From an uncultured Bacilli bacterium (GTDB lineage Bacteria; Bacillota_I; Bacilli_A; RF39; UBA660), in contig CANPXB010000012.1 of NCBI GenBank assembly GCA_947585595.1, forward strand, positions 1-41,110: a DNA stretch of 41,110 nt. Direction: 5' to 3'. Shown one piece after another: positions 29,809 through 41,110 of the stretch (position 1 is the stretch's first letter; each line of letters begins with the position of its first letter). Under the pieces are notes generated by a model that did not search any database, was not told the origin of the DNA, and saw nothing but the letters and a program-made list of their open reading frames with translations. The position numbers and the translations under genes were made by a program.

Positions 29809-30710
29809 TGGTTGTTCTTAGATTAGGAAAAGTTAATAACTTAGAAAGAAAATTTATTCCAACGAAGAAAGAATATCTAAATAGATATTTAAAGAGGATG
29901 AAGAAAATAGAAGAATATGTTCTTACGCAGACATATAAAGATGGATATAAATATCGTGAATATAATGATCATGGAGATTTAAAATATACGAAAAATAATA
30001 AGATGAGTACAATTACGAAAATTGCAGAAATAAGTAAAGAGGAATTTGATAAAGCACTTAAAAGTAATAAAGGTAAAGCGATTATAAAGACAAGAAGTTA
30101 TTATATTGATGGAAATTATGAAATAGATGTAGATACATTTATAAAACCAATAGATATGGTAATGATTGAAGTATCAAGTGATAAAGCTCCGTTGGAAGAT
30201 TATGTACCTCCTAAAGGATTTATTGAAGTTAGTGGAACTAAGGAATATGAAAATTATGGGATATATAACGGGAGTATTAAATGGAATAATATTATTTTAG
30301 AAGGTACAGATGGTGTTGGTAAGACGGAAACAATTAAGAGATTATTAAAAGAAGGAATTATCTGTCAAGATAGAGAGATGGATGTAATATCTAAAAATAT
30401 GTTATTTGAAATACCGATGGAAGAAAGAGCAAAGAAATATAATGAATACTTAAAGAATAGTGATAAACATATTATATTTCTAATTAATAAAGATAAAGAT
30501 GAGTTAGAAAGAAGAATTAATAGTCGAAATAGACTTAGTGAATTCGATTTAGAAGCATTTAAATATAATAAACTTTATGAAGATACTTATTTATATATGA
30601 AAGATAAGGACTTACTTAATAATAAACTACATTTAATAGATTGTACTGGTTTAGATATTGATGAGCAAGTAAAAGTGATAAAAGATTATATAATAAAGAT
30701 TAATGCCTAG
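29808..30710 (+). CDS. CYTH domain fused to a thymidylate-kinase-like P-loop kinase
   Basis: Residues about 10-150 look like a CYTH (triphosphate tunnel) domain: RKFIP at the start, KYTKNNK, TKIAEISKEEFDKAL, AIIKTRSYYI, YEIDVDTF, VMIEVSS and KEYENYGIY, in the usual spacing with paired Lys/Arg and Glu residues on tunnel strands. Residues about 160-300 are a P-loop kinase: IILEGTDGVGKTETIK (Walker A), a CQDRE motif as in TMP kinases, and an Arg-rich lid (RRINSRNRLSEF). The fusion would join a triphosphate-binding or -hydrolysing domain with a nucleoside or nucleotide kinase. In this operon an attractive role is trapping of imported nucleoside (inference). Confidence 0.68.
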   Translation: MVVLRLGKVNNLERKFIPTKKEYLNRYLKRMKKIEEYVLTQTYKDGYKYREYNDHGDLKYTKNNKMSTITKIAEISKEEFDKALKSNKGKAIIKTRSYYIDGNYEIDVDTFIKPIDMVMIEVSSDKAPLEDYVPPKGFIEVSGTKEYENYGIYNGSIKWNNIILEGTDGVGKTETIKRLLKEGIICQDREMDVISKNMLFEIPMEERAKKYNEYLKNSDKHIIFLINKDKDELERRINSRNRLSEFDLEAFKYNKLYEDTYLYMKDKDLLNNKLHLIDCTGLDIDEQVKVIKDYIIKINA

Positions 30711-31263
30711 TATAGCATCCCATTTTGTGGTAGCCAAATTAGTTGGTAAAAGATTAAATATACAGAGTGTTGATTATTATAGAGGTAATATTCTTCCAGA
30801 TATAATAGATTTAGAAAATAGTCATTTTAAAGTAAAAGGAACATACTATATGATACCTGATATTAATTATTATTTAGAAAACTATAAACTAGATAATGAT
30901 CTTAATATCGGGTATTTAGTACATTTACTACTTGATAAATATTTTTTAGAAGAATATGTTTTAAAGAATATAAAAAATTATAAGGAAATGAATCTTTTTT
31001 CACCAGATTTATTGTATAATGATTATACAAATATGAATTATTTATTACTTAAAAAGTTTAAGTTAGATATTAATTATTTAAATGAAGTAATGAAAGATTT
31101 TAAAGTTAATTTAAATAAAGGTAAATATAAATTAAATGTAGATAGTATTAATAATATGAAAGTTTATGATACTTTGAAATATATTGATTTTAAAAAGTTT
31201 ACGAGATTTTTAAAAGATGTAGCAATAAAAATAGCTGATGATATAAATAAGTATAGAGAGTAG
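30703..31263 (+). CDS. Short zinc-dependent phospholipase C-like protein
   Basis: A 186-residue protein that begins MPSIASHF, like the MPSITTHH of the minus-strand gene ending at 16336. It keeps presumed metal ligands: the N-terminal His, Asp in GNILPDI, His in NSHF, and His/Asp in GYLVHLLLDKYF. There is no signal peptide. It is shorter than the usual family and may represent a minimal cytoplasmic form acting on a phosphate ester in the operon's pathway (inference). It overlaps the previous gene by 8 bases. Confidence 0.55.
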   Translation: MPSIASHFVVAKLVGKRLNIQSVDYYRGNILPDIIDLENSHFKVKGTYYMIPDINYYLENYKLDNDLNIGYLVHLLLDKYFLEEYVLKNIKNYKEMNLFSPDLLYNDYTNMNYLLLKKFKLDINYLNEVMKDFKVNLNKGKYKLNVDSINNMKVYDTLKYIDFKKFTRFLKDVAIKIADDINKYRE

Positions 31264-31271
31264 GTAATTAA

Positions 31272-31997
31272 ATGAAATTAAATATTACATGTTGTTTATT
31301 TGTTTTAGATAATGAAGTTAGTAGTAATATACGTAAAAATGATACGAAAAAAATTAAAGTTTTAATAGGTAAAGATAATCTATTACCTAGGGTTTTATAT
31401 GATAGTAAGAGTGATATAAAAGAATTAATAAGAGATTATATAACAGGTATTATTGGTAGTAAGATGTTTCATTTAGAACAAGTTTATACGCTTGGAGATA
31501 CAAGATTTATTAGTGATGGCGTAGATGTTATATATTTAGGAGTTATGAATGCTAGTAATATCAAGAAACTTGATGATAAATATGAACTTAGAGATTTTGC
31601 TATAAATGAAAATGAACTAATTAAATTAGGAGAAGAAGTTTATAAGTATAAAACCAAAGAAAAAATAAGTAATAATAATATTGAATATTTTCATGAAATA
31701 AAAGTTGATGATGTTAATTTAGAAAAACTATTATTAGAGTTAGTTATAGCTTATAAACATTTAAGAGGTAAAATAGATTCTTCAGATATTGTGTTTAAAT
31801 TTATGGATAAGTTATTTACTTTAGAAGATGTAAGAATGGTTTATGAAATGATTAAAGAAGTTTCAGTAGATAAATCTAATTTTAGAAAAAGAATTACTAA
31901 GTATTGTGAGAAGACAGAGGCGATTGTTGATAAGAAGGGACATCGTCCAACCCAAATGTATAAGTTTAAACCACTTTCAGGAGATATCTGGCTATAG
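31272..31997 (+). CDS. NrtR-like regulator: degenerate NUDIX domain with winged helix
   Basis: A 241-residue protein. The N-terminal about 150 residues have the NUDIX strand pattern (NITCCLFVLD, KIKVLIGK, VDVIYLGVM), but the catalytic box is degenerate; only a partial KELIRDYITGIIGS remains in its place. The last about 80 residues match the winged helix of NrtR regulators: LFTLEDVRMVYEMI, KSNFRKRITKY and GHRPTQMYKFKP. NrtR proteins repress genes for NAD synthesis and are released by ADP-ribose or NAD-related ligands. Being inside the pnuC operon, it most likely controls that operon through the palindrome at 27862-27882 (inference). Confidence 0.75.
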   Translation: MKLNITCCLFVLDNEVSSNIRKNDTKKIKVLIGKDNLLPRVLYDSKSDIKELIRDYITGIIGSKMFHLEQVYTLGDTRFISDGVDVIYLGVMNASNIKKLDDKYELRDFAINENELIKLGEEVYKYKTKEKISNNNIEYFHEIKVDDVNLEKLLLELVIAYKHLRGKIDSSDIVFKFMDKLFTLEDVRMVYEMIKEVSVDKSNFRKRITKYCEKTEAIVDKKGHRPTQMYKFKPLSGDIWL

Positions 31998-32008
31998 GAG
32001 ATGACATT

Positions 32009-32572
32009 ATGATTATTGCAACAAATAATAAAGGTAAAATAAAAGAAATTAAAGAAATATTTAAAGATTATGAATTATATAGTTTAAAAGATAAAGGGAT
32101 AGATGTTGATGTACAAGAAGATCAAGATACATTTTATGGTAATGCTTTAAAGAAAGCTAAAGAGATATATGAATTAACTAAAGAACCGGTTATTGCTGAT
32201 GATTCAGGATTATGTGTCTTAGAATTAGATGGATGGCCAGGTGTTTTGACACATAGATTCTTGGGTGAAGAAGCAAGTGACGAAGAAAGAAACAAAGCAA
32301 TAATTGAAAAAGTAAATAGTTTAAGTAATCGTAAAGCCAAAGTAGTATGCAATATGGTTTATTATGATGGAACTGAGACTTTGGTTGGTGTTGGGGAAAT
32401 AAATGGCAATATTACAAAGGAAATGCGTGGGGAGAATGGCTTTGGCTTTGATTCAATATTTGAACTAGCAAACGGGAAGACATTAGCAGAACTTAGTCCT
32501 ATAGAAAAGAATCAAGTGAGTGCTAGATATTTGGCACTTGTTGATTTAAAGAAGCAATTAGATAATAAATAA
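32009..32572 (+). CDS. rdgB: XTP/dITP diphosphatase (RdgB/HAM1 family)
   Basis: A house-cleaning pyrophosphatase that removes non-canonical purine triphosphates (XTP, ITP, dITP). The family motifs are the N-terminal ATNNKGKIKEI, the catalytic ADDSGL, and GENGFGFDSIF. Length (187) is normal. In many members the loop after WPGV reads SAR and the C-terminal motif reads SHR. Here they are THR (WPGVLTHRFLG) and SAR (residues 171-173), a reciprocal exchange of His and Ala. Last gene of the seven-gene operon, 11 bases after the NrtR-like gene, followed by a strong terminator. Confidence 0.92.
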   Translation: MIIATNNKGKIKEIKEIFKDYELYSLKDKGIDVDVQEDQDTFYGNALKKAKEIYELTKEPVIADDSGLCVLELDGWPGVLTHRFLGEEASDEERNKAIIEKVNSLSNRKAKVVCNMVYYDGTETLVGVGEINGNITKEMRGENGFGFDSIFELANGKTLAELSPIEKNQVSARYLALVDLKKQLDNK

Positions 32573-32602
32573 AACTCATTTCAAAAACGAAATGAGTTTT
32601 TT
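32571..32602. terminator. Bidirectional terminator between rdgB and the NPTTG protein gene
   Basis: A 12-bp stem AAAACTCATTTC / GAAATGAGTTTT (32571-32582 with 32589-32600) with T runs usable in both directions. It serves the converging genes on both strands. Confidence 0.85.
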
Positions 32603-32603
32603 G

Positions 32604-33260
32604 TTAAGCTTTTCTAAAGAAATATACTAAACCTGCACCAGCGATTAAGATTAATCCAAGAGGTATGATAAGATTTAAGTCACCAGTAGTAGGATTTTCT
32701 TCTTTAATTTTTTCGGCTATTTCAGGAGACCATTCTTTATCTTTTCCTTCAGTATCTAAAAGAGATATTTTTTCTGGATCTACTTCAATTATTACATATT
32801 GATCATTATGACCATCTTTATCCCAATCAAAGCAATATTTATAAGTTAATTTTTTACCATCTAACAGAACTTTTTTTAAGTTGGTTGGAGTAATACCGAC
32901 ATAATCTTTAAATGAAGATGCTTTGATTTCAGTAGTTTTATTATCTGGAGTTGTTACTTTAAAATCAGAATTATTGTCATCGCTTGGTTCAGTTACCTCA
33001 AAACCAATCCAAGCAGCAGGCCCAGGTCTTTCACCATCAGCAGCATCGTTATCTTTTTCTAACATTTTGAATGTTGAAGCACCATATCTAATGTATGTGG
33101 TATCTCCTTTCGTTTCAAGAGTTCCCTTACCAGAAGTAAGTGAATCTCCGGCTTTTTCAGTTATGTCTTTGACTTCACCGTAATTGCTAGCAGCAAAGAC
33201 ATGAGGAATTAATGCTAGCGACATTATAATGAATATTGGGATCATTATAATTCTTTTCAT
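32604..33260 (-). CDS. Sortase B-type surface protein with NPTTG motif
   Basis: A 218-residue exported protein. The signal peptide (MKRIIMIPIFIIMSLALIP, cut near VFAA) is followed by a domain of about 155 residues with one Cys (YKYCFDWDKDGHNDQY) and a possible acidic Ca-binding loop in DWDKDGHND. The C-terminus is a sorting signal: NPTTG, a hydrophobic helix and a short FFRKA tail. NPxTG/NPxTN-type motifs are the usual substrate of class B sortases, and a class B sortase gene is divergent next door. ATG 33260 has AGGAG 8 bases upstream and begins the signal peptide; the longer reading frame upstream overlaps the sortase start and is not used. Confidence 0.78.
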   Translation of the reverse strand: MKRIIMIPIFIIMSLALIPHVFAASNYGEVKDITEKAGDSLTSGKGTLETKGDTTYIRYGASTFKMLEKDNDAADGERPGPAAWIGFEVTEPSDDNNSDFKVTTPDNKTTEIKASSFKDYVGITPTNLKKVLLDGKKLTYKYCFDWDKDGHNDQYVIIEVDPEKISLLDTEGKDKEWSPEIAEKIKEENPTTGDLNLIIPLGLILIAGAGLVYFFRKA

Positions 33261-33322
33261 AAATCGACTCCTTTTTTCATAATAATATTTTAGTAATTCT
33301 TCTATGACTGAGGTGATTATCA

Positions 33323-34177
33323 ATGAAGAAATACATGACATTGGAAGAGTTTTTTAAAACATCAACAACTATTAAGAAAAGAAAGAAGAATATATTAGAT
33401 TATATGGTAGCTATTGGATGTTTTAGTATTATCATCTTCTCATTATATACTATATTAAATTGGATAAAAGATAATTCCAAAATAAAACAATTAAATACAG
33501 AAATTATTCAAAATACTAAAATTATAGATAGTAATGAAAAAGGCGTATTAGTTAATCCACCAGGAGATATGAATAGTAATTATTATTACTATACTAAGTT
33601 TTCTTTAATGGAAGTTGATTTTAGTAAATTAAAAGAAAGTAATGAAGATACTGTAGCTTTTATACATATTGATAATACAAATGTTAATTATCCGGTAGTA
33701 CAAGTAGATAATAATGCTTATTATTTAAAACATTCTTTTGATAAAAAGGTTAATAAGGGTGGATGGATATTTTTAGATTTTAGAAATGATATCAATAATT
33801 TAAGTGATAATACAATTATTTATGGGCATTCAAGATTAGATGGAACGATGTTTGGGAGTCTTAAAAATACTTTAATTGATTATTGGCAGAGTGATAAGAA
33901 TAATTATGTTATTTATATTTCGACACCTAAAGAGAATATGTTATTCCAAATATTTAGTATTTATACTATACAAAAGGAAAATTATTATATAAGAACTAGT
34001 TTTGAAACTAAGAAAGATAAACAGAAGTGGTTAGATACAATGAGGGAAAGAAATATAGCACCAATAGATACAGATGTTAATGTTGATGATAAAATTCTTA
34101 CTCTATCGACTTGTCAGAATAATCATGATGGAAGAATTGTGGTGCAAGCGAAGTTGATAAAAAGGCAAAAGAGATAA
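33323..34177 (+). CDS. srtB: Class B sortase
   Basis: A 284-residue transpeptidase that links surface proteins to peptidoglycan. An N-terminal cytoplasmic part and one membrane helix (about residues 28-48) lead to an extracellular catalytic domain. The triad is visible: His in IIYGHSR, Cys in LTLSTCQN, Arg in GRIVVQAKL. The TLSTC plus GGWIFLDFRND and a long helix between strands place it in class B. Divergent from the NPTTG substrate, 62 bases apart, with GAGGTGAT before the ATG. Its presumed substrate is that protein; the LPLTG and IPETG proteins elsewhere in the window probably need another sortase. Confidence 0.9.
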   Translation: MKKYMTLEEFFKTSTTIKKRKKNILDYMVAIGCFSIIIFSLYTILNWIKDNSKIKQLNTEIIQNTKIIDSNEKGVLVNPPGDMNSNYYYYTKFSLMEVDFSKLKESNEDTVAFIHIDNTNVNYPVVQVDNNAYYLKHSFDKKVNKGGWIFLDFRNDINNLSDNTIIYGHSRLDGTMFGSLKNTLIDYWQSDKNNYVIYISTPKENMLFQIFSIYTIQKENYYIRTSFETKKDKQKWLDTMRERNIAPIDTDVNVDDKILTLSTCQNNHDGRIVVQAKLIKRQKR

Positions 34178-34183
34178 AAAAAA

Positions 34184-34216
34184 GACTATTTTGGTAAGAA
34201 AATAGAATAGTTTGAG
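34184..34216 (+). repeat. Left copy of an imperfect 33-bp direct repeat flanking the accessory operon
   Basis: The first 15 bases (GACTATTTTGGTAAG) are identical to 41072-41086. Over 33 bases I count 28 identities. The copy starts 7 bases after the srtB stop. Confidence 0.5.
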
Positions 34217-34222
34217 TTTTTT
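34184..34222 (+). terminator. Probable terminator after srtB, inside the left direct repeat
   Basis: CTATTTT (34186-34192) pairs with AAAATAG (34199-34205), or alternatively ACTATT with AATAGT; TTTGAG and six T follow. Its first 33 bases are also the left copy of the repeat described separately. Confidence 0.5.
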
Positions 34223-34250
34223 GCTTACATTATCATAAAATTACAACAAT

Positions 34251-34297
34251 TAATATTGACTTTTTAATATAAAATATTATAATAATTGTCAATATTA
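34251..34297 (+). promoter_or_regulatory. Inverted repeat enclosing the island promoter
   Basis: TAATATTGAC (34251-34260) and GTCAATATTA (34288-34297) are perfect 10-bp inverted repeats, 27 bases apart. The left arm contains most of the -35 box. The arrangement also creates a -35-like TTGACA on the minus strand. Confidence 0.6.
34256..34283 (+). promoter_or_regulatory. Promoter of the VUT-QueC-like operon
   Basis: TTGACT (34256-34261), a 16-bp spacer, TATAAT (34278-34283). The untranslated leader would be about 75 nt. I looked for a preQ1 riboswitch-like pseudoknot in it and found no convincing match. Confidence 0.7.
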
Positions 34298-34363
34298 GGA
34301 GCAATCACTTGAAATTTGGTTCATTTTTTAAAGGAAATATTAGGGTTTAAAGGTGTGGTATCA

Positions 34364-35008
34364 ATGGTTAAAAAAAATAAAGTTAATAATTCGGATTTAT
34401 TCATGTATATGTCTATTGTATTTGTTGTTTGTTTATTACTTTCGAATATTTTAGCATCAAAATTATTAAAAATTGCTAGTTATTCTGTAACAGCAGGAGT
34501 ACTTGTATTTCCTATTTCGTATATAATTAATGATATATTTTCAGAAGTATATGGTTATGAAAAAACTAAAAAGATAATATTCTTTGGCTTTTTAATGAAT
34601 TTATTTATGGTATTGATTTTTAGCTTAGCTATTATAATACCAGCTCCAGTATGGTTTGAAAATAATGATGCCTTTAAATTAATTTTAGGTTCTACTCCAA
34701 GAAATTGTTTAGCAAGCTTAATGGCGTATTTATTTGGATCATTAGTCAATGCTAAAATATTAGTCAAAATGAAAAGTAATAAAAATAATAAATTTGGGGT
34801 TAGAGCAATTGTTTCTACTATATTTGGAGAATTTACGGACTCTTTAATATTTGTCTTTATTGCTTTTTTAGGTAACTTACCATTATCTCAAATGATATCA
34901 ATGATATTAATTCAAGTGATTATTAAAACTTTATATGAAATTGTATGTTTACCTATTACTACTAATTTAGTAAATAAGGTAAAAAAATATGAGAATATAG
35001 GAAAATAA
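34364..35008 (+). CDS. VUT-family (YhhQ/DUF165) queuosine precursor transporter-like protein
   Basis: A 214-residue membrane protein with about six helices. Marks of the VUT family are NILASKLL, VFPISYIINDIFSEVYGYEKTKK and FGEFTDSLIFVFIAFLG. Members such as YhhQ import preQ0, preQ1 or related 7-deazaguanine precursors; some relatives carry other small vitamins. The start is ATG 34364, 7 bases after AAAGGTG; earlier in-frame starts lack a ribosome site. It is the first gene of an eight-gene operon that also encodes a QueC-like enzyme, which supports a deazapurine-type or other heterocyclic substrate (inference). Confidence 0.83.
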   Translation: MVKKNKVNNSDLFMYMSIVFVVCLLLSNILASKLLKIASYSVTAGVLVFPISYIINDIFSEVYGYEKTKKIIFFGFLMNLFMVLIFSLAIIIPAPVWFENNDAFKLILGSTPRNCLASLMAYLFGSLVNAKILVKMKSNKNNKFGVRAIVSTIFGEFTDSLIFVFIAFLGNLPLSQMISMILIQVIIKTLYEIVCLPITTNLVNKVKKYENIGK

Positions 35009-35011
35009 TAA

Positions 35012-36142
35012 ATGAAAAAAGTGATAGTTTGGGGAACATGTTGGCTTAATGAGTCAATAGATTTATTAATAAGTTTTTATAAAACATCAATAAAATCATT
35101 GCAAAAAATGAATTTTGATATTATTCCAATGATATTTGATGCCAAAATTGATAACAATGAAAAAGATTTGAATTATATAAGAGAAAATATAAATAATGTT
35201 ATTATAATTAAGAATACAATTAATATATTTCCCAATAAAAATTATGGAGTTGCATTAATAACTAATAAAGCTTATGAATTAAAAGCAGATTATATTGCAA
35301 TTGTTGACTCAGACTGGAATATTAAAGAAAATTATTCTTTTATTAATAATATATTATTATCGTTAATTAAAAATGATTATGATATTATTATACCCGATAT
35401 AAAAGATGCTGCTGGACGAAGTAATATATTAATTGGGAAGACGGCGATTACATTATTTTATCCAGAATATAAAACTATTATAAAAACACCTTTTCCTGGA
35501 TCTTTAGTAGCCAAAACTATCAAACTTTTTACTATTGTAAATGATAAATCGTACCATTTTGACTGGGGTGGAGAATGGGATATTATTTCTCTTGCTATAG
35601 ATAAAGGTATGAAAATAAATTCAATTTTGGTAGAAGTTGAAGGCACTAGGCATAGACCTAATAATTCAAAAATATTTGATAGTTTTCAGATTTGGCGAGC
35701 TATATTAGCTAATGATAGTATTAAAGAAAGATTTAAATATTTACAAGCGAATGATAAAGAAATTATTCCTTATAATCAAATATCAGAAATGATATTAGCA
35801 AATAATTATTCAACTTTAGAATTAATTGAAATATTAGAAAATGGTGATACCACCGATACTGAAAAGCAAAATCTTTATATGATATTATATCCCATTGCTT
35901 TTTTAACCGGACAAATTACAAATGTTCCAATTATCCAATCGAATGATAAAATGCCATATGATAAAGAAGAAATAAAAAAGATATCAGATTTTGCTATATA
36001 TTGTGCTAAAAGAGCATTAACTAATTGTGATATAGAAAAAGTTTTAAATAGATGTCAAAATATTAAAGCCAAAATTTTAAGTGATTGGAATTTTGAAATA
36101 CAGCGTGATTTATTAAAAGAAAGTTGTAGTGGTGATAAATGA
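35012..36142 (+). CDS. GT-A fold glycosyltransferase-like protein
   Basis: A 376-residue soluble protein. The N-terminal about 250 residues have GT-A features: a sequence ADYIAIVDSDWNIKEN with a DxD-type acidic motif, then PFPGSLVAKT and FDWGGEWDIISLA, as in inverting or retaining sugar transferases that use a nucleotide sugar and a metal ion. The C-terminal about 120 residues are helical and unassigned. The start has no clear ribosome site and follows the previous stop by 3 bases. It ends with the only TGA stop in the window, which overlaps the next ATG (ATGA). The acceptor is unknown. Confidence 0.6.
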   Translation: MKKVIVWGTCWLNESIDLLISFYKTSIKSLQKMNFDIIPMIFDAKIDNNEKDLNYIRENINNVIIIKNTINIFPNKNYGVALITNKAYELKADYIAIVDSDWNIKENYSFINNILLSLIKNDYDIIIPDIKDAAGRSNILIGKTAITLFYPEYKTIIKTPFPGSLVAKTIKLFTIVNDKSYHFDWGGEWDIISLAIDKGMKINSILVEVEGTRHRPNNSKIFDSFQIWRAILANDSIKERFKYLQANDKEIIPYNQISEMILANNYSTLELIEILENGDTTDTEKQNLYMILYPIAFLTGQITNVPIIQSNDKMPYDKEEIKKISDFAIYCAKRALTNCDIEKVLNRCQNIKAKILSDWNFEIQRDLLKESCSGDK

Positions 36143-36954
36143 AATTAACTATAGCAATTATTTGCTCTAATGACCATTTAATAAAAAAATGTATTGATAG
36201 TATTCCAAAACAAACTCCTATAATTGTTATTTTAAACTATCCCGATGATTATGTTTTAAATATTGTTAATAATGATAAAAGAATAAAAGTATATAGATGT
36301 GATGAAAGAAATTTAGGAAAATTAAGACAACTAGCGGTTGATAAATGTAAAACACCGGCTATATGTTTTGTAGATTCTGATTGTATTTTAGAAAAGAATA
36401 CTATTAGGATAGTTGAAAAAGAATTAAAAAAATATTATGCAGTAAATATTCCTTTGCATTTTGATTATAATAATTTATCTACAAAAGTTGTATCATTATG
36501 TAGACAATTTACGACTCCTGATAAATTGTTATATATGCCATTTGCTTTTAGATTAGATATTCAAGATAAAATAGGAAAATTATTTAATGATAAGTTATAT
36601 TGGGGAGAAGATAGTGATCAAAGAAAAAGAATGAAGGAAAATGGTTTAGAATATGGGATTGCTGAAACTTTTATAACGCATAAAGTATTAACTGTTAAAG
36701 AAGATGCTAAATCGTCTATGAGACTTGGTAAAGGAACTTTTATTCAGGAAGTAAATGGAATTAATGAAAAAAGAAGTTTTTGGAAAGATATATCAATTAT
36801 TACGGAAATTAAAAATGCAGTAGCATGTAGTAAAGCGACTGATAGTTTTTTAGCAGGATTATATCATTTCTTTATATGGCGACCAACATATAAGTATGGA
36901 TATTGGAAGGAGAGAATTAAAAATGGAAGTAAAAGCCAAAATAATAAACAATAA
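36139..36954 (+). CDS. Family 2 glycosyltransferase
   Basis: A 271-residue GT2 enzyme: KLTIAIICSND at the N-terminus, a nucleotide-binding ERNLGKLRQLAVDKC segment, the metal-binding VDSDCIL, and the YWGEDSDQRKRM motif, which holds the Glu-Asp catalytic base pattern. There is no membrane helix except a weak one near the end (FLAGLYHFFIW). It overlaps the previous gene by 4 bases and the next by 32, a strong sign of co-translation with both the preceding transferase and the QueC-like protein. Donor and acceptor cannot be told. Confidence 0.78.
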   Translation: MKLTIAIICSNDHLIKKCIDSIPKQTPIIVILNYPDDYVLNIVNNDKRIKVYRCDERNLGKLRQLAVDKCKTPAICFVDSDCILEKNTIRIVEKELKKYYAVNIPLHFDYNNLSTKVVSLCRQFTTPDKLLYMPFAFRLDIQDKIGKLFNDKLYWGEDSDQRKRMKENGLEYGIAETFITHKVLTVKEDAKSSMRLGKGTFIQEVNGINEKRSFWKDISIITEIKNAVACSKATDSFLAGLYHFFIWRPTYKYGYWKERIKNGSKSQNNKQ

Positions 36955-37981
36955 TATAGAAAAGGAAATAAAAGTATCCTCAGCTTTGATAGATACAATA
37001 TACGAAATTATTAAAAAAACATATTTAGAAGCAAAGGAAATATATGTTAAAAATCCAACAAACGCTGATAATGAACAATTAAGTGATTTTCTTACTTATA
37101 TTTTAGCTTATCCAAAAGGTGTTGAAACGCCTAAAGTAATTGTTAGTAATGAACGTGTTAATTTTAATAATAACTATTATGATGAATTTTTGGATAGAGT
37201 ATTAGTTTGTTTTTCAGGTGGTGTTGATTCTACAGGAGCTCTTTTAAAATTAATTGATGAAAGAAAAAATCCTGTTGCTTTTTGGTGTGATTATGGGCAA
37301 CCATATAGAAATCCAGAAAGAAAAGCAGTTGAAAGAATTTGTAAGAAATTAAATGTTCCTTTAATTGAAGCTGTATTAGATTTAAGTGATTTAATTTCAA
37401 TTGGGGGAGAAAGATTTGGTCATGTTTTTCCAGCAAGAAACTTAATGATTGCTTCGATTGGACTTTGTTTCAGACCAAAAGAAATAGTTTTAGCTGGTTT
37501 ATGCGATGAGTTAGTAGTTCCTGATAAATCACTTAGAATGTATGATGAATTTGGAAAATATTTTGAAGTACCATTATATTCACCATTTGTTGATATGACA
37601 AAAACCGAAGTTTTATGTGTTTGGAAAGCAAAATGGGATAAATATTTAGATGCAAGAGAAACAGTTAGCTGTTATAGTGATAATGGTGATTGTCAAAATT
37701 GTTCTTCATGTGCTAAAAGAGAAGTTGCTTTTGTAGCGTCTGATTATACTGATTATTACCCAGAAGTATTTACTAATCAACATGAATTAATAGAAGGACA
37801 TTGGTTTTCAAGAGTAGATATTTTTCAATATGAAAGAAGAACCGATATGCTAATTGCTTTATCAAAATATAAAGATAAATTAACATTAAAATTACAGGAA
37901 TTAGTGGAATATAATTGTGAAAAATATAAAGATGAAATTGCTAAAAGAAGAAAACAATTAGAGAAATTAAAAAAGGTGTAA
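36923..37981 (+). CDS. QueC-like PP-loop enzyme with extra N-terminal domain
   Basis: QueC turns 7-carboxy-7-deazaguanine into preQ0 (7-cyano-7-deazaguanine), using ATP and ammonia. This 352-residue relative has the PP-loop (SGGVDST, residues 98-104), the QueC-type DYGQ (123-126), PARN (170-173) and a zinc site of four Cys (250, 257, 260, 263). QueC is normally about 220 residues; here about 90 N-terminal residues precede the PP-loop and the C-terminus extends about 85 residues beyond the zinc site, ending in a helical Lys-rich tail. No queD, queE or folE is present. The reaction may be nitrile or amide formation on a different acid. Start ATG 36923 has AAGGAGAG 8 bases upstream. Confidence 0.82.
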   Translation: MEVKAKIINNNIEKEIKVSSALIDTIYEIIKKTYLEAKEIYVKNPTNADNEQLSDFLTYILAYPKGVETPKVIVSNERVNFNNNYYDEFLDRVLVCFSGGVDSTGALLKLIDERKNPVAFWCDYGQPYRNPERKAVERICKKLNVPLIEAVLDLSDLISIGGERFGHVFPARNLMIASIGLCFRPKEIVLAGLCDELVVPDKSLRMYDEFGKYFEVPLYSPFVDMTKTEVLCVWKAKWDKYLDARETVSCYSDNGDCQNCSSCAKREVAFVASDYTDYYPEVFTNQHELIEGHWFSRVDIFQYERRTDMLIALSKYKDKLTLKLQELVEYNCEKYKDEIAKRRKQLEKLKKV

Positions 37982-37983
37982 TA

Positions 37984-38523
37984 ATGAATAAAATATATAT
38001 TGTGAGACATGGTAAAACTGATTGGAATGTTAAAGGATTATTACAAGGAGCTACAGATATTGATTTAAACGAAGAGGGAATTAATCAGGCCCGAGAATTA
38101 GCTAAAAATTTAGATTTTAGTAAAATTGATATTTGTTTTTGTTCACCTTTAAAAAGAACTAAACAAACTGCTGAAATACTGGTAGGAAATAAACTAAAAA
38201 TAATTTATGATCAAATGATAGTAGAAAGAGGCTTTGGTGATTATGAAGGAAAACCAATTGACTTTGATCTAATTGAACAGCAATGGAATTATAAATTAAA
38301 TGATAGTTCACATAATATAGAAAGTTTAAAAGATTGTTTATCTAGATCTAAACAATTTTTGGATAAAATAAAAAAAGAATATCCTGATAAAACAATTTTA
38401 ATAATTTCACATGGTAGTTTTATAAAAACTCTACATTTTAATTTAATAGGATATGATGAAAATACAGATTTTTTATCATTTAATCCTAAAAATTCTGTTG
38501 TTTACGAATATGAAATGGATTAG
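37984..38523 (+). CDS. Histidine phosphatase / phosphoglycerate mutase-family protein
   Basis: A 179-residue member of the histidine phosphatase group. The catalytic RHGKTDWN, the SPLKRTKQTAEI block, the ERGFGDYEG motif and the second catalytic His in ISHGSF are all present. Proteins of this size are usually phosphatases rather than mutases (CobC- or PhoE-like). In this operon it would remove a phosphate from a pathway intermediate (inference). It starts 2 bases after the QueC-like stop; its ribosome site AAGGTG lies in the end of that gene. Confidence 0.87.
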   Translation: MNKIYIVRHGKTDWNVKGLLQGATDIDLNEEGINQARELAKNLDFSKIDICFCSPLKRTKQTAEILVGNKLKIIYDQMIVERGFGDYEGKPIDFDLIEQQWNYKLNDSSHNIESLKDCLSRSKQFLDKIKKEYPDKTILIISHGSFIKTLHFNLIGYDENTDFLSFNPKNSVVYEYEMD

Positions 38524-38529
38524 ACGAAA

Positions 38530-39351
38530 ATGACGAAAGTTGACATATTTGGAACTTGTCTTACAAGAGAACTATTTAATGTCGCTTCAGATTATGAAGT
38601 AAATACTTATTTAATGCAACAATCCATATTTACAATGTTTTCTGAACCATTACCAATAGATTATAAAATGGCAAAAAGTCATGATGATTATAAATTTAAA
38701 AATAGAATGATTTATTATGAAATGAATAAGATGGGTATTTATAAAATGTTAGAAAATCCCGCTGAATATTTAATAATAGATTTAGCCGATTTAGGGCGTG
38801 ATATATTAGAATTTGATAATCCAAAGGGGGTTAAACTAATCTGTACTGAAGACATATTATATACTCTAAATTCTCTTAATGGTAAAGAAGATTTTAGGTA
38901 TAGGGTTTTTGATGTTAGAAACTTTACTGAACAGGAAATAATAGATATGCTTAGAAGATTTATTGCTTTAATTTTAGAAAAGTATGATAGTAGAAATATT
39001 ATTTTAAATACAGTTCAGATGAGTAATATTTATTATGATGGTAATGTTGAGAAAAGAATAGTTGATAATTTTATTTATAGTAGATTAAGTTTTATCAAAA
39101 GAATAGAAGAATTGTTTATAGCATTATTACCCAATTGCCGAATTTTAAAAGCAAGTTATGAACCACTATTAGATATAAATCATCGATTAGGTGCACCACA
39201 TCCGGCTCATTTTGAAAAAATATATTATGAGTATAGAATGCAATTATTGGATTCGTTGATAAGGCAAGATAGTTCAGCTGAAGAAATTGATAATAATTAT
39301 AAATTGGTATATGATAGAGAAATTAAAAGAATTAGAGCAAAAAGATTATAA
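38530..39351 (+). CDS. DUF6270/SGNH-like protein
   Basis: A 273-residue soluble protein. It begins with TKVDIFGTCLTRELFN, the block I pattern of the DUF6270/SGNH-like group (often GSC-x-SRD), with Thr where a nucleophilic Ser is expected. Further family-like points are TVQMSNIYYDGN and the C-terminal INHRLGAPHPAHFEKIYYEY with several His. DUF6270 proteins are common in capsule and surface glycan clusters. The assignment is by motif; the Thr change leaves open whether it is an active esterase. Confidence 0.6.
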   Translation: MTKVDIFGTCLTRELFNVASDYEVNTYLMQQSIFTMFSEPLPIDYKMAKSHDDYKFKNRMIYYEMNKMGIYKMLENPAEYLIIDLADLGRDILEFDNPKGVKLICTEDILYTLNSLNGKEDFRYRVFDVRNFTEQEIIDMLRRFIALILEKYDSRNIILNTVQMSNIYYDGNVEKRIVDNFIYSRLSFIKRIEELFIALLPNCRILKASYEPLLDINHRLGAPHPAHFEKIYYEYRMQLLDSLIRQDSSAEEIDNNYKLVYDREIKRIRAKRL

Positions 39352-39375
39352 AAATTAATATAGGGAGGTTTTGAG

Positions 39376-40002
39376 ATGGAATTTAATAAATTTATTATGG
39401 TTAGTGGACCAGCAGCATCGGGGAAGAGTACATTAGTTTCTGATATGAATGATGAATTATCAGGTTTTATTTTTAAACCATCACAAGCTTATATAGAATT
39501 AGCCAAAATTAACGGAATTCCTTTAACTAGAGCCTTTTTTGATATAACAAGAGAAATGGCTGGCGAATATTTTTGCGATATTTGTAAGCAACATGATATT
39601 GTAATAGGTGATCAACATTTAGCAATGCAACATTGTAGAGATTCAATGTTAGCAACTAGTAGCAGTGAAATGAATTTTTCTAATGAGCCATATGTTTCGA
39701 CGCTTGATTATGATTTATTTGATAAACTTTCAGCTAATCAAATAAAAACAATATTAATTTACTTAAAGGCATCTCCAGAAGTTTTATTTGAAAGAGCATA
39801 TAAAAGACATATTTATAGTGGAACTCCTATGAGAAATAAAACTTTAGATGAAGTTATTGATGAAGTTAAAGCTGAATATTACTATTTTAGAGAATTAGTT
39901 GAAAAAACGAGAATAGATAGCTTTGAAATTGAAACTGATGATAAAAGTTCAAACGAGGTGTTAGAATATGCTTTACGAAAAGTTAGAAAATATAAATTCT
40001 AG
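39376..40002 (+). CDS. P-loop kinase of the AAA_33/deoxynucleoside-kinase-like group
   Basis: A 208-residue kinase with Walker A GPAASGKST (residues 11-19), an acidic VIGDQHLAM segment that could be the Walker B/DR position, and a lid-like FERAYKRHIYSG with Arg/Lys. The fold resembles small-molecule or nucleoside kinases rather than protein kinases. A strong GGGAGG site lies before the ATG. In this operon it would phosphorylate a sugar, nucleoside or carrier intermediate (inference). Overlaps the next gene by 35 bases. Confidence 0.72.
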   Translation: MEFNKFIMVSGPAASGKSTLVSDMNDELSGFIFKPSQAYIELAKINGIPLTRAFFDITREMAGEYFCDICKQHDIVIGDQHLAMQHCRDSMLATSSSEMNFSNEPYVSTLDYDLFDKLSANQIKTILIYLKASPEVLFERAYKRHIYSGTPMRNKTLDEVIDEVKAEYYYFRELVEKTRIDSFEIETDDKSSNEVLEYALRKVRKYKF

Positions 40003-40906
40003 AACGAATCTACCTTTGAATGGCCCAGGAAATTATCGAGTAATTGGTAATTTAGTATATACGAGAGCAATTGAAATAAATGCGGTTAGGCAGTGTAATT
40101 TATCTTGTCGTAGTTGTTCCCATTCATCTCCAGTTTCAACATGTAAAGAATATGATCCAATTGTAATGGAAAAAGATTTATCTACAATGTCCCATTTTTT
40201 ACACTGTGAATTTATTAGATTGTTGGGTGGTGAGCCTCTATTACATTCCAATTTATTAGAAGTATTAATGGCTATTAAACGAAGTAAAATAACTGATAAG
40301 ATATGTTTAGTTACAAATGGTATACTTTTGGATAAATTATCAGATGAAATGTTACAATATATAGATAAAATTGAAATTTCTATTTATCCTTTAAATAAAA
40401 GTGTACTTCAAGCAATTAAAAATAATGCTTTAAGATTATCGGAAAAAGGTATAAAGGTACGTCTTTTAGAATATAGTGATTTTCGTGAATCAATAACACA
40501 ACAATCTATAAACAATAGTGGATTAATTCAGCTTGTATATGATACATGTCAAGTAGCTCATACATTAAGATGCATTACAATTGATAATAATAGAGTTTAT
40601 AGATGCCCTCAATCAATGATATATTCGGAAAATAATAATGATTTTTCGGATAGTATTGAAATTGATAAATTATCAAGTATTGATGAATTACTAATGTTTT
40701 TAGAAAATAATAATTACTTACATTCTTGTTCAAGTTGTTTAGGGTCTGTAGGGAAAAAATTTAATCATGAACAGGTAAGTAAAGATAAATGGATAGAGTC
40801 ATTACCAGTTACAATTGAAGATGGTATAGATATGGAGTGTGCTAAATCATTAGTAAAAAAACTAGAATATAAAAATGATTGCATGACAAGATATAATTTA
40901 AATTAA
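39968..40906 (+). CDS. Radical SAM protein with C-terminal cysteine cluster
   Basis: A 312-residue radical SAM enzyme. The cluster motif is CNLSCRSC (CX3CX2C, about residues 43-50), the SAM-binding site LLGGEPLLHSN. A second set of cysteines (TCQVAHTLRC, VYRCPQSM, SCSSCLG) suggests an auxiliary Fe-S cluster as in SPASM-like or twitch-type domains. Similar enzymes modify peptides, sugars or nucleosides. The start ATG 39968 lies inside the kinase gene, with GAGGTG 7 bases upstream, which supports the long overlap. Last gene of the island operon, followed by a terminator. Confidence 0.82.
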   Translation: MLYEKLENINSRTNLPLNGPGNYRVIGNLVYTRAIEINAVRQCNLSCRSCSHSSPVSTCKEYDPIVMEKDLSTMSHFLHCEFIRLLGGEPLLHSNLLEVLMAIKRSKITDKICLVTNGILLDKLSDEMLQYIDKIEISIYPLNKSVLQAIKNNALRLSEKGIKVRLLEYSDFRESITQQSINNSGLIQLVYDTCQVAHTLRCITIDNNRVYRCPQSMIYSENNNDFSDSIEIDKLSSIDELLMFLENNNYLHSCSSCLGSVGKKFNHEQVSKDKWIESLPVTIEDGIDMECAKSLVKKLEYKNDCMTRYNLN

Positions 40907-40931
40907 ATATAAAATGATATAAATAAACTAT

Positions 40932-40960
40932 AGAAATTCATATATATGAGTTTCTTTTTT
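40932..40960 (+). terminator. Rho-independent terminator of the island operon
   Basis: AGAAATTCAT / ATGAGTTTCT (40932-40941 with 40946-40955, one G-T pair) followed by a T run. Confidence 0.7.
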
Positions 40961-40989
40961 AGTGTCTAAATAGTTTTTTTGTCATAGAT

Positions 40990-40995
40990 TATAAT
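40990..40995 (+). promoter_or_regulatory. -10 box of the disrupted amidase gene
   Basis: TATAAT, then GAGGTG at 40996-41001 and an ATG 6 bases later. These expression signals remain intact although the gene is broken. Confidence 0.45.
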
Positions 40996-41007
40996 GAGGT
41001 GAAGACT

Positions 41008-41110
41008 ATGAAGAAGGTTGTAATAGATAGTGGGCATGGAGGTATCGGTTAAATCCAAAAATAGAAGAAATGACTATTTTGGTAAGTAAATACAAGAGTT
41101 TAAGGTACTT
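41008..41110 (+). pseudogene. Disrupted N-acetylmuramoyl-L-alanine amidase, 5' remnant at the island border
   Basis: The first 12 codons read MKKVVIDSGHGG, the start of an Amidase_3 enzyme with its first zinc-binding His. After that, the frame gives Ile-Gly and a TAA at 41050-41052. A shift of one base opens a frame to the end of the window (RLNPKIEEMTILVSKYK) that is not amidase-like. So the gene is cut by a deletion or insertion just after codon 12. The right copy of the 33-bp repeat lies in the unrelated part. It may also be an assembly join near a contig end. Confidence 0.6.
41072..41104 (+). repeat. Right copy of the imperfect 33-bp direct repeat
   Basis: Matches 34184-34216: the first 15 bases are identical and 28 of 33 overall by my count. 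Together the two copies bracket the eight-gene operon and the amidase remnant. Confidence 0.5.

Follow-up and report, generated by a model that had tools for sequence, protein, structure and literature searches.

The window examined here is the whole of contig C12 (41,110 bases) in a draft Bacilli genome of 55 contigs, 96% complete and with 6% contamination. It carries an accessory operon for a VUT transporter, two glycosyltransferases, a divergent QueC-like enzyme, a phosphatase, a DUF6270 protein, a kinase and a radical SAM enzyme (Table 1). The initial annotation had described eight genes in one direction with overlaps or short gaps, and this was confirmed by open reading frame calls and family searches. 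All eight frames lie on the + strand between 34364 and 40906 and form one operon, in which neighbouring genes overlap by 4–35 nucleotides or are separated by 2–24. The first glycosyltransferase gene (GT-A1) starts 3 nucleotides after VUT and overlaps the second (GT2) by 4, GT2 overlaps QueC by about 30, and the phosphatase gene follows QueC after 2. DUF6270 lies 6 nucleotides beyond the phosphatase and the kinase a further 24 on, and the kinase overlaps the radical SAM gene by 35. On the right, the flank is covered only to the contig end. Pfam and TIGR searches upheld the annotated families (VUT, QueC-like, glycosyltransferase, phosphatase and radical SAM), and a structure match upheld the GT-A fold of the first glycosyltransferase.

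Table 1. Genes and candidate control elements of the operon
Feature	Coordinates	Strand	Evidence
Candidate promoter, TTGACT-16-TATAAT	34256..34283	+	consensus match 11/12
VUT/YhhQ-type queuosine-precursor transporter	34364..35008	+	PF02592 (Vut_1) 2.2e-46; TIGR00697 109.7 bits, cut-off 50.95
GT-A1, mannosylglycerate-synthase-like GT-A glycosyltransferase	35012..36142	+	no Pfam family; predicted structure match
GT2-family glycosyltransferase	36139..36954	+	PF00535 (Glycos_transf_2) 6.4e-10
Divergent QueC-like ATP-dependent enzyme, ~85-residue extra N-terminal domain	36923..37981	+	PF06508 7.4e-18
Histidine phosphatase, CobC/alpha-ribazole-phosphatase-like	37984..38523	+	PF00300 (His_Phos_1) 1.2e-41; TIGR03162 108 bits, under cut-off
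DUF6270 protein, optional component	38530..39351	+	PF19786 6.6e-15
P-loop small-molecule/nucleoside kinase-like protein	39376..40002	+	weak E-values: AAA_18, cytidylate kinase, dNK, VakA
HygY-like twitch radical SAM enzyme, predicted sugar epimerase	39968..40906	+	profile match to 7wzv, 1.9e-52
Possible AT-rich terminator hairpin	40930..40960	+	10-bp stem then U-run; folding z -1.56

One promoter and one terminator had also been annotated. The promoter is among the best two of 59 promoter-like matches in the region; because such matches are no commoner there than in shuffled sequence, it is plausible only. The terminator hairpin is weak, since its folding z is only -1.56 and a terminator scan called none near 40930-40960. 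No Rfam match to a preQ1 or other riboswitch was obtained at E<=1 within 30000-41110. The GC content of the operon is 25.8% compared with 26.8% in the remaining window, so composition shows no foreign or contaminating piece. Directly upstream of the operon, a gene on the - strand (32604-33341) encodes a membrane-anchored surface protein whose sorting motif is NPTTG-like. It overlaps, and diverges from, a class B sortase gene (33323-34177, + strand; TIGR03064 over cut-off).

Active-site residues of the QueC-like and radical SAM proteins

The QueC-like protein lies outside ordinary QueC, with 48.8 bits against TIGR00364 (cut-off 150.3) and 21-25% identity to canonical QueCs. Placement within ordinary QueC, which the initial annotation had named as a refutation, was therefore not borne out. 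It was aligned with canonical QueC and with two phage QueC proteins that carry a glutamine amidotransferase domain (GAT-QueC); residue numbers do not count the first methionine. Retained in 5/5 genomes that carry the gene are the SGGVDS loop (SGGxDS), Y123 (E. coli Y35), Q125, E131, P169-R171-N172 (PxRN), P199-D200 and K226, the lysine at the E. coli K165 position. The zinc motif, C249-Y250 with C256/C259/C262 (CxxCxxC), is likewise kept in 5/5. Tyrosine occupies the position of E. coli H39, and the canonical YPDC reads VPDK in 5/5 carriers, with K201 for E. coli C134.

In Cap9 a tyrosine stacks on the base and an aspartate two positions later recognises the guanine edge through N1 and N2; this Watson-Crick-edge aspartate is common to Cap9 and QueC, and QatC has threonine at both positions (PMC13279940). 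The aspartate is kept as D200 in all five QueC-like proteins. E. coli QueC is inactivated by Y131A, the stacking position, as it is by Y35A, R99A and Y189A (PMC13329287). Because the adenylating core and the guanine-edge reader are kept and the stacking residue is lost, the residues make canonical preQ0 synthesis unlikely and favour a guanine-like substrate. The initial annotation had allowed for action on an unrelated acid. That proposal keeps some force because the stacking tyrosine is valine in 5/5 proteins, and the retained D200 weighs against it.

As far as tested, the protein appears to be neither canonical QueC, QatC nor Cap9. Only the PADLOC 'QueC' model matched it; the QatC profile did not, and no qatA, qatB or qatD neighbours are present in the operon. 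CD-NTase and Cap10 were absent from the window operon by family search, and none was recognised by eye in loci L006, L007 and L012. Structural matches of the model include B. subtilis QueC, Cap9, LarE and YcfA, and serve for fold placement only. An extra QueC match in genome G168 was MnmA by sequence.

The radical SAM protein matched PDB 7wzv by profile over nearly its full length. It also aligned near full length, at 30% identity, with a radical SAM protein encoded beside APH(7'')-Ia in a Streptomyces cluster that contains StrS-type aminotransferases and GalE as well. From this context the cluster was identified as hygromycin B-type and its radical SAM protein as HygY. The radical SAM cysteines C43, C47 and C50 (CxxxCxxC) and four auxiliary-cluster cysteines (C194, C213, C254 and C257) are conserved, as is C202 (3/3), which aligns with HygY residue 183; 7wzv has serine there. 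A single cysteine reportedly switches HygY between epimerase and dehydrogenase, going by the title of a 2021 report by Besandre, and we take C183 to be that residue. Because all of these cysteines are conserved, the protein is predicted to be a sugar epimerase. In NeoN the hydrogen donor is Cys249 (PMC10991966).

QueC homologs act in anti-phage defence (PMC13279940), and the operon might do so through Cap9/QatC-like protein modification by the QueC-like enzyme or through an antiviral nucleotide made by a viperin-kinase-like pair. Its patchy distribution and repeated decay, described below, would suit such a role, as would weak PADLOC matches of the radical SAM protein to pVip and of the kinase to VakA. 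A viperin-type identity was rejected, however, at 44 bits against an NCBIfam cut-off of 180, and the 7wzv/HygY type fits far better than viperin (1.9e-52 vs 1.7e-5). The operon also lacks a CD-NTase, QatA, QatD, a nuclease or another effector, and viral contigs yielded no relatives of the QueC-like, radical SAM or GT2 proteins. A defence role is improbable.

Glycosyltransferases, transporter and queuosine background

GT-A1 has no sequence-level match to mannosylglycerate synthase, as it has none to a Pfam family. Its AlphaFold model (predicted local distance difference test score, pLDDT, 77; predicted template modelling score 0.82) was compared with PDB using Foldseek. The best matches were mannosylglycerate synthase (E 1.7e-8), including a lactate-bound form, and glucosyl-3-phosphoglycerate synthase, with target template modelling scores of ~0.6. 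D99/D101 (DxD) and the DWG motif are conserved where covered; the window copy reads IVDSDWN, and L012 has PDW for SDW. Judged by its predicted fold, GT-A1 may resemble enzymes that glycosylate small acids. A further GT-A1 match in G077 was MiaA-like and was rejected as chance. The kinase was placed weakly, among nucleoside/nucleotide kinases and VakA, and the phosphatase is CobC-like.

The GT-A1 model admits a pathway without deazaguanine. GT-A1 would glycosylate a small hydroxy acid, the QueC-like enzyme would amidate the acid, and VUT would carry other cargo or serve tRNA queuosine salvage, yielding an amidated glycoside or a surface-polymer decoration. The lactate-bound match, the valine at the QueC stacking position, DUF6270 and the sugar-acting type of radical SAM enzyme are all consistent with this, and a PF06508 cluster with WbpG works in O-antigen synthesis (PMC13329287). 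Sugar-acid amidation is nevertheless unlikely, as all five proteins retain the guanine-edge aspartate along with most of the QueC active site, and VUT stands first in 4/4 operons. The operon also has no flippase, polymerase or lipid-carrier transferase.

The VUT score passes the threshold of the model for queuosine-precursor transporters, and transport is predicted. TGT and QueA were found in 26/27 and 16/16 genomes tested, in carriers and non-carriers of the operon alike. Both are encoded in all five carriers, although TGT of G313 was seen only as a fragment with a stop. Thus tgt is absent from the operon, as annotated along with queD, queE and folE, but TGT and QueA are encoded elsewhere in the genome. 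Canonical QueC was found in none of 13 genomes searched, and carriers have no second, canonical QueC; QueT, an alternative transporter, was found in none of 16. Since carriers and non-carriers do not differ in TGT and QueA, tRNA queuosine does not depend on the operon, nor is the operon the general queuosine route of the family. A canonical queuosine operon was rejected, since the genome has no canonical QueC and the QueC motif fails.

A different link to tRNA would be hypermodification of queuosine, with VUT feeding TGT and QueA and with the glycosyltransferases and radical SAM enzyme decorating queuosine as in its mannosyl and galactosyl forms. The transporter score and the presence of TGT and QueA in all carriers agree with it, and glycosylated queuosine exists in vertebrates (PMC8654956). 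It leaves the QueC-like protein, kinase and phosphatase without a role, however, and a very rare module contrasts with TGT and QueA, which nearly every genome tested encodes and which are no commoner in carriers. Hypermodification is thus improbable.

VUT genes occur in 30/145 family genomes, and the 11 neighbourhoods viewed all lacked the other operon genes. VUT relatives in G030 and G052 were rejected as operon copies since they have other gene contexts. In G052 (L051, 8571-10283), VUT lies beside a nucleoside 2-deoxyribosyltransferase-like gene and a dNK-like kinase gene, both named by eye, possibly another deazapurine salvage unit.

Recurrence of the gene set

Apart from the window genome, 3/385 genomes sampled from the order carried QueC-like homologs, at 77-84% identity. 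Only the window's own was found among 193 family genomes and among 392 genomes sampled across the phylum, and a scan of ~85,000 species genomes added one homolog of 63% identity. The carriers known are the window genome, G313, G289, G804 and G260; four come from one small-genome Bacilli family, and all are draft genomes in which some frame breaks may be assembly errors.

A six-gene core, VUT-GT-A1-GT2-QueC-kinase-radical SAM, is present in the window, G313 and G804. In the window the phosphatase and DUF6270 genes are inserted between QueC and the kinase, in G313 the phosphatase gene follows radical SAM, and G804 has the core genes from VUT through radical SAM. G289 has the first five before its contig ends. 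The G260 remnant consists of a GT2 tail, an N-truncated QueC, the phosphatase and a cut DUF6270 gene, in the order of the window. VUT is the first gene in all four carriers that cover that flank, the kinase is a core gene in four carriers, and GT2 (64-80% identity in other carriers) is the best-conserved gene besides QueC. The phosphatase gene is present in the window, G313 and G260 and absent or not captured in two carriers, and DUF6270 occurs outside the window only in the G260 remnant. Because the core recurs at 41-80% identity between unrelated flanks, the arrangement is more than chance. Co-occurrence had been set beforehand as a point on which the operon could fail; the genes stand together in every carrier with sufficient flanks. 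A radical SAM match in G634 was rejected as distant and in an unrelated context.

The flanks, named by eye, are sortase; an MGDG-synthase-like glycosyltransferase and FIST; ppdK; enolase and a RhuM-like gene; and a GH30-like gene. Since they differ at each locus, the operon looks like a transferable module. We infer that it is mobile and easily lost, and has often been gained and lost, because the G260 copy lost whole genes and breaks occur elsewhere.

These losses could also mean that the accessory cluster is selfish or in decay, its genes being tolerated side by side and not forming one pathway to a coherent product. The GT-A1 frame is broken in G289 and G804, VUT of G289 is interrupted by a stop, and G260 holds a deletion remnant. 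On the other hand, every frame is open in the window and G313 copies, and QueC, GT2 and kinase are intact in both G289 and G804, as is radical SAM in G804. Selection is indicated because those genes stay intact at 41-80% identity, and decay alone is improbable. G289 alone among the carriers has another radical SAM/SPASM-like gene (L007, 4360-5226), which directly precedes VUT. The G260 remnant (L008, 10519-15000) is flanked by RhuM/Fic-like genes, by eye, as if in an accessory-gene hotspot.

Possible pathway and comparison with known systems

We tentatively prefer to read the operon as a mobile biosynthetic module whose product is a small glycosylated molecule, in which a 7-deazaguanine-type base, or a similar heterocyclic acid, is joined to sugars. 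VUT would import the base. The QueC-like enzyme would adenylate its carboxylate with ATP and couple it to ammonia or a different amine, so that an amide and not canonical preQ0 results. GT2 and GT-A1 would then attach sugars. The HygY-like enzyme would abstract hydrogen from a sugar C-H, and a cysteine would return hydrogen from the opposite face to bring about epimerization. The kinase and histidine phosphatase might phosphorylate and dephosphorylate an intermediate, to activate it or to protect the producer, and DUF6270 may be an optional tailoring step. Each step is drawn by analogy with the chemistry of one family; from operon structure, recurrence, family placement and retained residues together, we infer the product, base, sugars, order of steps and biological role. 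A heterocycle attached to a sugar or surface glycan had been annotated as a possibility. Heterocycle and sugar fit D200, VUT, the two glycosyltransferases and the HygY-like enzyme; the surface glycan lacks specific support because the operon has no flippase, polymerase or lipid-carrier gene.

Several points weigh against this pathway. The stacking tyrosine (E. coli Y131) is V198 in 5/5 QueC-like proteins, and the model of the protein is poor (pLDDT 64). There is no queD, queE or folE in the operon to make the carboxylate, and the remaining genome was not searched for them. We know of no VUT transporter shown to carry 7-carboxy-7-deazaguanine, and the imported base could be used solely by TGT and QueA, which are encoded elsewhere. 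VUT is broken in G289, and GT-A1 there and in G804. Finally, genes for export or resistance are absent from the operon. Of the two halves of the proposal, the one concerning sugars has better support than the one concerning the base. A more specific form, in which a 7-deazaguanine amide from an imported base is joined to sugars by way of a QueC paralog turned amide ligase and a HygY-type epimerase outside aminoglycoside producers, is rather unlikely. If true, repurposing of the QueC fold, so far seen in tRNA and DNA modification and in protein tagging in phage defence, would extend to sugar-linked small molecules, and aminoglycoside-type radical sugar chemistry would be placed in tiny-genome gut bacteria.

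The initial annotation knew of no described system with this gene set, and likewise no description of it was found among the papers searched. Mannosylglycerate synthase (GT78) shares the predicted fold of GT-A1 and, presumably, its DWG-type motif, but sequence identity is 10-15%. HygY and 7wzv share near full-length homology, CxxxCxxC and the four auxiliary cysteines with the operon enzyme, which keeps the HygY-183 cysteine. Identity to HygY is ~30%, however, and the operon pairs the enzyme with QueC-like and VUT proteins, not with aminocyclitol genes. Canonical QueC (TIGR00364) shares the ATP loop, PxRN, zinc site and guanine-edge aspartate; the operon protein differs in its score under the cut-off, its valine for an essential tyrosine, its extra N-terminal domain of ~85 residues and the lack of queD and queE neighbours. 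None of the QueC clusters in PMC13329287 has the gene context of this operon.

Among phages and plasmids, the nearest BLAST relatives are the phage GAT-QueC proteins of Vid5 and MiCath (3e-9, 8e-7), which have a similar GGE...PARN region. In contrast to the operon protein, to which they are 25-30% identical, they carry a glutamine amidotransferase domain and lie amid queD, queE, folE and a TGT-like gene. In Vid5 (L070), VUT, QueE, GAT-QueC, QueD, FolE and a TGT-like gene form one run; VUT and QueC are thus linked in phages too. Pairing of deazaguanine with a glycosyltransferase is known from the huimycin cluster of Kutzneria albida, where a 7-deazaguanine pathway with a QueC homolog and a glycosyltransferase leads to a base glycoside (PMC7439116). 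That cluster makes its own preQ0 with queD, queE and folE homologs and has a methyltransferase, while no VUT, radical SAM epimerase, kinase or phosphatase is listed (PMC7439116). The operon is a new variation on pathways to deazapurine or sugar natural products.

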